From positions 62,001 to 126,000 of the forward strand of contig KB899087.1 in the NCBI GenBank assembly GCA_000378025.1: a DNA stretch of 64,000 nt, written 5' to 3'. Source of the DNA: Xanthobacteraceae bacterium 501b (GTDB lineage Bacteria; Pseudomonadota; Alphaproteobacteria; Rhizobiales; Xanthobacteraceae). Position numbers and translations under genes: made by a program. Below, piece after piece: positions 53,290 through 61,221 of the stretch. The first letter of the stretch is position 1. Every line of letters starts with the position of its first letter. The notes below the pieces were generated by a model. The model was not told the DNA's origin. It saw nothing but the letters and a program-made list of their open reading frames with translations, and made no database searches.

Positions 53290-56200
53290 ATGAACCGCCT
53301 GTTTTCATCCGCCAGCCACGCGGCCCTTTTTGCCGCTGGCGCTCTGCTCGTGGCCCCGCTGTCCGGCGCCCGCGCCGACTCGTTCGCGGTTCCCGCCGGC
53401 GCGACCGTGACCACGGGGCAGATCGTGTCCGGCACGGACACCGGCGTCATCGCGGCAGGCGGTGCGCTTGACGTGACCGGCACGGCGATCACCTGGAGCG
53501 GGGCGGCCACCGGCACGGGCGTCGATCTGCGCAATGACGGCACGATCACCAGCACCGGCCGCGCGCTCGACGCTGCTTCCAAGGTCAGCGGCACGCTGAC
53601 GCTGACCAATAGTGGCGACATTACCTCGGGTGACGACACGGTGCGGCTCAGCGGCTCCTTCGCCGATGGCACGCTCCATGTGGTCAATACGGGCTCCATG
53701 ACCGCCACCAGTGGCCAAGTGTTCGATCTCAACAAGGCGACGGCGGAGAGCGCCAGTGTCGAGATCGACAATAGCGGCATTCTCACCGCCGAGGACAGCG
53801 ACGCCATCCGCTTCGGCGGCGGCACTATCCTCCTCACCAATTCAGGGACCATCCAGACGCTGGAGGCCGAAAGCCGCGCCCTGAAATTCGACAATGACGA
53901 GAACATCGACACTCTGGTGTCGTTCACCCTCGTCAACGAGGAGGGGGGGCGGATTCTCGGCCTCGACGACGGCTTCAAATTTTCCGCCGACTCGAAGACC
54001 TCGGATGCGCAGATCATCATCGAGAACCGCGGTTTGATCGATGGCGGCGCCGGCCAGGCACTCGACTTCGCCGACCTGACTTCGCCCGACAACGTGATCC
54101 TCATCACTAATTACGGCACGCTGCAGTCGGCCACCGCCGACGGCATCCGCCCCGGCTCCGGGGCCATTGTGACCAATTACGGCCTCATCCAGTCGACCGA
54201 CCTGACCAGCGACGGCGACGGTATCGATTTCCAGGAGGCCGGCGGCACGGTCATCAACAAGGCGACCGGCCAGATCCTCGGCGCCAAGCACGGCGTGACC
54301 GGCGACGGCGAGGTGTCGGTACAGAACGACGCGGGTGGGCTGATCGTCGGCCGTAACGGGTCGGGTATCAACATCGACAGCACCGGCGACACGGTGGTCA
54401 CGGTCGTCAATTACGGCACCATCCGCGGCGAAGTGACGGGTCTCATCGACGATGACGGCGAGGCCGATGGCGTGCCGGACGGCGATGGCGACGGCGTTGA
54501 TGTCGATGGCCAGCTGGTGCTGGACAATTGCGGCCTGATCCAGGGCACCGGCGCCACCGGCACCAATGATGACGCACCGAACACGGCCGACGGCATCGCC
54601 GCCGGCGGCGGCACGATCATCAACCATGCGGGCGCCGTCATCGAGGCGTTCGACAACTACCCGAACGACGGTTCGGACGATGTCGGCCGCGCCATCCTGA
54701 TCGACGACAGCGCGCAGGGGCCGGCGCCCTTCGCGACGGTGATCGTCAATATGGGCACCATCCGCTCGGACGGCACGGCGATCACCCTCATCGGCACGCA
54801 GGACGACACCATCGTCAATAGCGGCCTTATCAGCAGCGCCAGCGAGGTCGCGGTCGATATGGGCGGCGGCGACGACGTGTTCGTCTATGTCGCGGGCAGC
54901 GAGGTCGTCGGCCTCGTCATCGGCAATGATGGCAACAACACCCTCGAACTCGGCGGCACCGGCACGTTCGACCTCTCTTTGCTGGGCGACGACGCACAGT
55001 ATCGCGACTTCAACACGCTTTTCGTGGATGAGGGCTCCAGCTTCACCGCCACCGGCACCTCCACCTTCGATGGCGAGATCGGGATCGATGGCACTTTGGT
55101 GCTGAACGGTTCGCTGGCCTCGGCCTCGGTCGAGATGGGCGACGGGGCCTTCCTCGGCGGCAACGCGACCGTGGGCGCTCTCACCGTCGGCACTGGCGCC
55201 ACGGTGTCGCCGGGCAATTCCATCGGCACCGTCACCGTGCTGGGTACCACGACCTTCGCGGCCGGCTCGTTCTTTGATGTCGAGCTGAGCGGGCTCACCT
55301 CGGACCAGATCATCACCGACACGCTGACGATCAATGGCGGCACGGTGGTGCTCTCGGCGATCGGCCCGGTTTATGCCGGCACGGTCTATGAGATCATCTC
55401 CGCCACGGCGACGACCACGCCGGTGGCGCAGTTCGCGCTTGAGCAACCCAGTTTCCTCTTCATCGATGCCGAACTCGGTCGCGACGACGCCTCGGTGACG
55501 CTTACCCTCACCCGCAACGACGTGTCCCTCGCCAGCCTCGCGCGCACCGCCAACCAGGCGAGCGTCGCCGGCGCCCTCGACCGTGCCGATGGCAGTCTGC
55601 TGCAGGCCACCGTGCTCGCCGGCAGCGCCGGCCAGGAACAGGCGATCCGCGCCGGCTATGACCTGCTTTCCGGCGAGGTGCATGCCTCGGTCGGCACGAC
55701 GCTGTACTTCCAGTCGACGCTGGTGGCCGATACGCTGAACGCCCGCCTGCGCCAGACCTCCGTGGGTGGGGCCTCGCCGGCACTGGCTGCGCTCGCCGCC
55801 GGCGGGCCCGTGAGCGCCTATGCGGCGAAGGCGCCGCAGGCGGCGAGCCCGTTCCCGGTCAAGGCCGTGCCCGCCGAGCCGGCGGGTCCGGTCTATGCCG
55901 CCTGGGCGCAGGGCTTCGGTCAGTGGAATTCGGCGAACGGCACCGGCAATTCCGCCGATGTCGATTCCTCGCTCGGCGGCTTCCTCGCCGGCGGCGACGT
56001 GACCTCGGGCAACTACACCTTCGGCCTCGCCGCTGGCTATGCCTCGGCGAGCCTCGATGTCGACGACCGGCAGAGCAGCGCCGATGCCGACACCGTGCTC
56101 CTCGCCGCCTATGCCGGCGCGAGCTTCGATGCCTTCCGCCTGCGCGGCGGCGCCAGCTATGGCTGGAGCGACATCGACACCACCCGCAGCGTCGCCATGC

Positions 56201-60483: not shown

Positions 60484-60530
60484 GATGACCATCCTTCGAG
60501 GCTCGCTGCGCTCGCACCTCAGGATGACGT
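60484..60530 (+). repeat. REP-like palindrome R1
   Basis: Begins GATGACCATCCTTCGAGGCT and ends CACCTCAGGATGACGT. The ends pair imperfectly (CATCCTTCGAGG against CCTCAGGATG) to form a hairpin. Same orientation as R3; its reverse complement matches R5 closely. Confidence 0.8.
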
Positions 60531-60653
60531 GGTACTTGCTAGGAGCAATCGGATGTCGCCCGGGAGATCGCGAAGTCCAGCGAAGCCGGGCACCTCAGGA
60601 TGACGACGCTCCGATGAGAGCCCTGACCCGTCGAGGCGTGTACTTAAAAAGCC

Positions 60654-60696
60654 ACGTCATCCTGAGGTGCGAGCCAGCGAGCCTCGAAGGATGGTC
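60654..60696 (-). repeat. REP-like palindrome R2, right after the GIY-YIG stop
   Basis: Inverted copy starting ACGTCATCCTGAGGTGCGAG. It ends 12 bp from the stop codon of the nuclease gene and matches the reverse complement of R3 except for a single-base indel. Confidence 0.82.
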
Positions 60697-60708
60697 GCAC
60701 AAGCGGCA

Positions 60709-61002
60709 CTATTTGCGCAGAGACGGCCGCCGCGCGGCCCCTCGCACCGTCTCCCAGTCGCCACGGATGAGGGCTTCTTTCTTGAGCCGGCTCCGCCCCT
60801 TGACCTGCCGTTCGGCGGCGATGGCATCGGTGATGCGCTCGAACGCTTCCGACCAGACCAGCGTTACCGGCCGGCGCCGAAACGTGTAGCCGGGATAGCT
60901 GCCGCTATGGTGCTCGGCGAGGCGCTTTTCCAATGCGCCGCTGGTTGAGCCGACATAGAGCGAACCGTCGGCGCAGCGAAGCATATAGACGAACGCACCC
61001 AT
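60709..61002 (-). CDS. Single-domain GIY-YIG nuclease
   Basis: A 97-residue protein consisting only of a GIY-YIG nuclease domain (UPF0213/YhbQ-like). The signature is spread over FVYMLRCADGSLYVGST (V5-Y6-M7 and Y16-V17-G18). The catalytic arginine is R27 in EKRLAEH and the metal-binding glutamate E64 in AAERQVKG; these assignments follow the family pattern. GGGAGAGAAG precedes ATG 61002. The gene is tightly enclosed by inverted REP-like palindromes, 11-12 bp from each end, with more copies outside. Family members cleave DNA, some branched or single-stranded. The cassette-like setting suggests an association with the repeats. Confidence 0.85.
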   Translation of the reverse strand: MGAFVYMLRCADGSLYVGSTSGALEKRLAEHHSGSYPGYTFRRRPVTLVWSEAFERITDAIAAERQVKGRSRLKKEALIRGDWETVRGAARRPSLRK

Positions 61003-61013
61003 CTTCTCTCCCG

Positions 61014-61060
61014 GATGACCATCCTTCGAGGCTCGCTGTGCTCGCACCTCAGGATGACGT
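61014..61060 (+). repeat. REP-like palindrome R3, directly before the GIY-YIG gene
   Basis: Begins GATGACCATCCTTCGAGGCT. It lies 11 bp upstream of the nuclease start, next to its ribosome-binding site, so the transcript leader can fold into this hairpin. It is an inverted partner of R2. Confidence 0.82.
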
Positions 61061-61092
61061 TGTGCGGGGGGAAGGCAAGGGACGTGGAAGAC

Positions 61093-61134
61093 CCTCCTTC
61101 GAGGCCCGGCGATGCCGGGCACCTCAGGATGATG
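61093..61134 (+). repeat. REP-like palindrome R4 (divergent core)
   Basis: Shares the outer arms (CTCCTTCGAGG and CACCTCAGGATGA) with R1 and R3, but the loop region reads CCCGGCGATGCCGGG, itself a perfect GC inverted repeat. The partial copy at 60585 ends in the same GCCGGGCACCTCAGGATGA. Confidence 0.75.
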
Positions 61135-61176
61135 GCGCGTTGGTGGATGACGACGTGATGAACTCCTTAAGGAGCC

Positions 61177-61221
61177 ACGTCATCCTGAGGTGCGAGCGCA
61201 GCGAGCCTCGAAGGATGGTCG
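61177..61221 (-). repeat. REP-like palindrome R5
   Basis: Inverted copy starting ACGTCATCCTGAGGTGCGAG and ending CTCGAAGGATGGTCG, the outer partner of R1. It ends 25 bp before the rhodanese stop codon and could serve as that operon's transcript end. Confidence 0.8.

Follow-up and report, generated by a model that had tools for sequence, protein, structure and literature searches.

A small GIY-YIG nuclease gene bracketed by CGTC-tagged REPs: a possible GIY-YIG counterpart of the RAYT/REP system

The window is the whole 64,000-nucleotide stretch of contig KB899087.1 that was analysed, and its host is Ancylobacter. A 97-codon open reading frame lies between asd and a rhodanese gene and is surrounded by copies of a palindromic repeat (REP). 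The features of the locus are as follows.

60709..61002, minus strand: GIY-YIG nuclease gene of 97 codons; ATG at 61000-61002, stop codon TAG at 60709-60711
60654..60696, plus strand: R2, REP downstream of the gene, with its CGTC tag distal to the gene
61017..61060, minus strand: R3, upstream REP with its tag also distal to the gene; inverted copy of R2
60487..60532, minus strand: R1, outer REP, oriented like R3
61175..61221, plus strand: R5, outer REP, inverted relative to R1
61090..61130, minus strand: R4, diverged REP with the inner part CCGGC..GCCGGG
60571..60607, minus strand: partial degenerate REP, seen as a direct repeat and missed by the REP scan

An earlier note on this DNA had described a GIY-YIG gene enclosed by two inverted repeats differing by a one-base indel, with a second inverted pair and two further copies outside them, and this architecture was confirmed. 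The halves of R2 and R3 agree at 22/22 and 21/21 bases in inverted alignment, and R3 has one additional base in its middle. R1 and R5 are 98% complementary over 49 nt, and R4 and the partial copy are more diverged than the other copies. R2 begins 12 bp past the stop codon, as the note had it; the 11 bp that it gave between R3 and the start codon becomes 11-14 bp, according to where the R3 tail is cut.

The 97-codon product matches the GIY-YIG nuclease domain PF01541 in a profile search with E = 3.2e-15 and 56.6 bits against a curated cut-off of 22.6. This is the sole domain found in the protein, which is not a tyrosine transposase of the IS200/IS605 type. Residues Y6, C10, D12, G18, R27, E64, K74 and K75 are among those invariant over 36 homologues, and Y6, Y16, G18, R27 and E64 are unchanged across 42 proteins. 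The catalytic residues are among these conserved positions. The nuclease of a relative in the same genus, A. polymorphus DSM 2457, is 96% identical to that of the window. Among solved structures, only the chains PDB 1zg2 and 1ywl (UPF0213) were matched at E = 0.01, and the UPF0213 GIY-YIG proteins resemble the window nuclease in domain and size. Other assignments were rejected. A phage or anti-phage defence gene was sought in PADLOC and PHROGs, which returned no families for three proteins at E = 0.01. Of known structured RNAs, miRNA models alone were matched, far under their gathering scores. The near-identical gene copies at many sites that mark an ordinary insertion sequence were not found; the eight within-genome pairs are 52-74% identical.

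The repeat has the layout CGTC-ATCCTGAGGTGC-(variable inner part)-GCCTCGAAGGATGG. The 15-mer CACCTCAGGATGACG of its head has 58 copies in the 5.1-Mb genome, five of them in the window cluster, and no copy when read backwards; the repeat is therefore not a product of chance. A REP scan outside the window gave 63 units; of the neighbours no more than 60 nt apart, 12 are tag-outward and 10 tag-inward (counted by eye). The CGTC tag at one end, the AT at the stem start, the high copy number and the doublets are those of the CGTC REP superfamily (Di Nocera 2013, PMC3733652), and the repeat reads CGTCATCC...GGAT. That survey gives CGTC REPs a stem of 8-9 bp and a loop of 4-5 bp, places them mainly in Alphaproteobacteria, with reports from all orders of the class, and counts Neisseria dRS3 among them (PMC3733652). 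The window REPs have a conserved stem of 5 + 4 bp with a bulge of 2 nt, and their inner part is longer and variable. As single-stranded DNA, four window REPs fold slightly better than shuffled sequences (z = -0.8 to -1.2, with 26-39 of 200 shuffles folding equally well), which cautions against stressing the hairpins too much. Many host-genome doublets (at L036, L046, L054, L060, L066 and L069) are heterodimers of a CATCCTGAGG unit and a CATGCTGAGG unit.

Homologues were collected from the 198 family genomes as the 60 matches with E = 1.1e-16 or better, two of which (L005 and L086) are the halves of a single gene split by contig ends. The check proposed in the earlier note, that homologues be flanked by palindromes, was borne out. 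A REP of the window kind lies within 300 bp of 60/60 matches and on both sides of 41/60. REPs occur on both sides within 150 bp in 36/60, and their tags point outward in 26 of these 36 and inward in four. The flanks were also compared without reference to a motif, by the best local alignment, inverted or direct, of the 250 bp upstream with the 250 bp downstream at a threshold score of 16. This test was passed by 54 of 67 loci (nine loci from the genus added, two of 69 dropped for a short flank), and 13 fell under the threshold. None of 132 windows displaced by 900 bp in those loci passed, nor did any of the 188 displaced windows pooled or any of 20 rhodanese-like loci with approximate gene bounds. 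The stop codon lies within the downstream REP in 22/66 family genes. In a scan of named genomes, the best 80 of 554 relatives come from across the Alphaproteobacteria, and the inverted score exceeds all 30 shuffles in 65 of the 79 tested. Three genomes of other classes (G216, G481 and G571) also hold a close homologue. The flanks of 21 of these best 80 contain repeats that are very unlike one another between, for example, Sphingomonas, Vineibacter and Rhizobium. At three Sphingomonas loci (L231, L241 and L254, from position 1501) the nuclease frame has no stop in the REP and continues through it into a SpoU-type RNA methylase, so that one ORF encodes both GIY-YIG and SpoU_methylase domains.

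Nuclease clade and REP type correspond. Nuclease clades (A and B) and REP types were assigned by eye before the tree was made, and scripted REP typing came last. The tree of 66 of the 69 proteins (three fragments excluded) has a single fully supported split, which separates clade B from the rest. Type B repeats have a CCTC tag, GAGGAGC or GAGGAGG, and GTCTCG. Type A repeats have GAGGTGC or GAGGCGC, and GCCTCG; 32 of those labelled by eye carry a CGTC tag and five a CCTC-like tag. By these labels, clade B genes stand beside type B in 28/28 cases and the rest beside type A in 37/38, L010 being the exception. Scripted typing of 69 loci returned type B as the nearest REP at 28/28 clade B loci and type A at 38/41 clade A loci; L010 and L013 have type B nearest and none was found at L087. 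The majority type is A at 39/41 clade A loci. Seven genomes hold both clades, each nuclease by REPs of its own type, with weak assignments at L013 and L087. Two diverged nucleases of one Ancylobacter (L161 and L176 of G202) are 74% identical, one beside CCTC-tagged and the other beside CGTC-tagged REPs with a common stem, and make a natural pair for finding the residues that read the tag.

REP abundance follows the same correspondence. Heads of types A and B were counted over the 198 genomes. The median is 28 type A and two type B heads in the 23 genomes with clade A only, four type A and 40 type B in the 21 with clade B only, and zero of each in the 147 with neither. Within genera, the type A count tracks clade A (p = 2.5e-4) but shows no such relation to clade B (p = 0.19), and the type B count tracks clade B (p = 2.5e-4) and less strongly clade A (p = 0.0035). 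One genome (G127) has a clade A nuclease with one type A and 26 type B copies. Each of the 51 genomes with the gene holds at least nine REP heads (median 54), and the median is seven in the 147 genomes counted as lacking it, which include four with fragmentary close matches only (G049, G143, G146 and G176). The earlier note had named an abundance unrelated to the gene as grounds for refutation. The two are related, but only 70 of the 147 genomes hold five REPs or fewer; 77 hold more than five, and one (G040) has 163. A role of the nuclease in spreading or maintaining the repeats, also proposed in the note, found no backing in their homogeneity. The share of exact heads is 0.61 in 25 genomes with the nuclease and 0.63 in 32 without it (p = 0.41), no difference, in a hand-chosen set comprising 25 of the 30 genomes with a clade A nuclease and 32 genomes rich in type A that lack such a nuclease.

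Thirty other GIY-YIG genes had been planned as controls. The REP-specific scan found a REP within 300 bp of 1/30, and the motif-free test found 25/30 bracketed by other REP families (24/28 of those first tested, then L103 bracketed and L105 among the unbracketed; L101, a fragment at a contig end, lies outside both GIY-YIG sets). In other classes, the best 20 matches below E = 1e-18, which we take to be YhbQ-like, were bracketed in 1/20, and the one exception resembles the bracketed kind by eye. On these results the REP link appears tied to certain GIY-YIG clades and not to the whole domain. One of the other REP families, that of the CGTCATTGCGAG REP, was followed genome-wide and gave a third pair. 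All 17 genomes with its own nuclease, one copy of which (G187) has an internal stop, hold at least 16 copies of the repeat, and 56/181 other genomes hold at least ten. The cut-off that defines these 17, E about 1e-36 (last match 1.3e-36), was chosen after the list was seen; the next three matches have two (G127), one (G071) and 18 copies (G033), which makes 18/20 with at least ten. The CGTCATTGCGAG count tracks its own nuclease clade within genera (p = 5e-4), and its association with clades A and B is less clear or absent (within-genus p = 0.064 and 0.077; unstratified 0.12 and 0.022). Three REP families thus each have a repeat-specific GIY-YIG partner.

The gene changes location. It is present in 51/198 family genomes, and the ORFs in the 1.5-kb flanks divide the 69 loci into 41 context groups, although short contigs may split one group. 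Paralogues within one genome are 52-74% identical in eight pairs, so no recent duplication is seen. A close relative of the rhodanese gene was found in 10/30 Ancylobacter genomes, and the states of these ten sites were read by eye. The nuclease gene lies beside it in five (G000, G022, G103, G178 and G199). Asd adjoins the site in G136 and G215 with neither gene nor REP in between, G214 has a neighbour other than asd, and G205 has a REP pair without the gene. At the G205 junction the sequence to the left of R1, exact with G000 over 18 nt, is followed directly by R3 and its right side (87 nt exact with G103), which indicates gain or loss of the segment with the gene between two REPs in direct repeat. 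The precise absence of a 407-bp cassette from R2 to R3, which the earlier note had suggested looking for in close relatives, was not seen: the one informative gap spans R1 to R3, and the two sites that lack both gene and REP (G136 and G215) are too diverged to place a junction by eye in a check for target-site duplication. In G204 unrelated ORFs occupy the place of the nuclease. The asd-rhodanese gap there (L131, 936-1483) contains two small ORFs that by eye resemble a MazEF-type pair.

REP positions were compared between two 200-kb slices picked by nuclease position. The 31 type B REPs of the G180 slice form 11 clusters, and the eight of the G155 slice form four. Eight G180 clusters were sought in G155, and four were placed on both sides; two of the corresponding gaps have no REP, and the other two hold a doublet, of CGTCATTGCGAG in one and of type A in the other. 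As a clade B nuclease is present in both genomes, the comparison shows REP turnover and not its cause. One gap can hold a type B doublet in G180 (L297/L298) where G155 (L307) has a doublet of CGTCATTGCGAG or type A, as if such intergenic gaps were shared landing sites. A separate G180 site (L294, slice offset 53309-53610) holds five REPs in alternating orientation, one per ~65 nt, and its matching site in G155 has no REP.

The architecture is that of RAYT/REP with a different enzyme and tag. One study describes RAYT genes as always flanked by two inverted REPs (PMC2817692), and the later survey adds long terminal repeats in some species and repeat-specific REPtrons in species with several REP families (PMC3733652). 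The systems share inverted REPs that flank an ORF, as R2 and R3 do in the window, repeat-specific partners and genome-wide doublets. They differ in enzyme, a tyrosine transposase there and a GIY-YIG domain here, and in tag, GTAG there and CGTC or CCTC-like here. Strand transfer, unlike in RAYT, is not expected of a GIY-YIG system. The survey reports no association of CGTC repeats with transposase genes (PMC3733652). The window repeat is like the surveyed CGTC REPs in its tag, the AT at the stem start and its doublets, and the difference from the survey is that a GIY-YIG family is here bracketed by CGTC REPs. A link of GIY-YIG genes to REPs, CGTC REPs included, was not found among the papers that literature searches listed, as judged by titles and the beginnings of abstracts. 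Small site-specific single-strand GIY-YIG nucleases with thousands of homologues, called Ssn, were reportedly described in Nature Communications in 2025. Each is said to have its own site in hundreds of copies per genome, in work that reportedly centres on Neisseria and ssDNA cutting. A small GIY-YIG enzyme and many copies of a matched repeat would be common to both, if the REP is taken as the site here. Ssn is probably the same kind of enzyme as the window nuclease, and the principle may thus already be in print.

That the GIY-YIG gene and its REP form a cognate nuclease-REP pair, comparable to RAYT/REP but with a GIY-YIG enzyme, is given an even chance of being right. The protein would recognise REPs of its own, CGTC-tagged type, probably in single-stranded form with the tag unpaired, and would cut there. 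The gene between two tag-outward REPs can be pictured as a REP doublet whose spacer has been replaced by the gene. Repair copying between REP-bearing sites after a cut could carry REPs and doublets to new intergenic sites and, now and then, the gene together with its REPs. Cutting and repair copying would keep one REP type common in each genome, and the nuclease would then be a cause of REP abundance. GIY-YIG enzymes act by hydrolysis and are not known to join DNA strands, and spreading would therefore depend on host repair. The functional link between nuclease and repeat proposed in the earlier note thus fares well on bracketing, on the matching of type and abundance and on orthologous sites that lack the gene, but not on the spreading role.

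The same observations can be read in other ways. The nuclease may be a homing parasite of REPs that spread otherwise: it would cut REPs, the gene would be copied into the cut sites with the REPs as homology arms, and REP abundance would be the cause of gene presence. A REP near all 60 close matches in many contexts, the common REP-rich genomes without the gene and the equal REP homogeneity with and without it fit this account, as does the single REP in G205 where G000 has R1-gene-R3, the outcome expected of gain or loss at a REP. The eight paralogue pairs at 52-74% identity speak against it, with no recent copy into a second REP seen, and the 22/66 genes that end inside a REP suggest a long joint history and not repeated fresh entry; homing is judged unlikely. 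Similarly doubtful is a nuclease that serves the host, much as Ssn reportedly does in Neisseria: it would cut single-stranded REPs in replication, recombination or DNA uptake and so control exchange around REP-marked genes. REPs would then be marks and not cargo. The small gene, its conserved core residues, its relatives across Alphaproteobacteria and the classing of Neisseria dRS3 itself as a CGTC REP are in its favour. A patchy gene (51/198 family genomes) in 41 contexts is, however, unlike a housekeeping gene.

Two other explanations are far less probable. REPs that abut start and stop codons in an intergenic position could be terminators or mRNA-stabilising hairpins for the gene and its neighbours, but regulation only leaves the matching of clade and REP type and the genome-wide counts unexplained, and is considered very improbable. 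Passive linkage, in which REPs collect in intergenic gaps where the gene lies by chance or shared descent, could draw on the gap that may hold different REP families in two species. It is nearly dismissed by the bracketing of 0/188 displaced windows, 0/20 rhodanese-like loci and 1/20 distant GIY-YIG genes and by the 41 gene contexts.

The cognate nuclease-REP pair may extend beyond this family. Small GIY-YIG nucleases could supply the dedicated enzymes that have been missing for the CGTC REP superfamily as a whole. They would form a second class of REPtron with a chemistry of its own, in which a hydrolytic nuclease, helped by host repair, would spread and homogenise its own REP type, one clade per REP family. 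This broader proposal is put forward tentatively, at slightly below an even chance. The 2013 survey left open which enzyme, if any, moves CGTC REPs (PMC3733652), and the type-matched nuclease is a candidate. The nuclease clades provide a natural set of enzymes with distinct predicted sites, and REP evolution becomes comparable between two unrelated enzyme chemistries.
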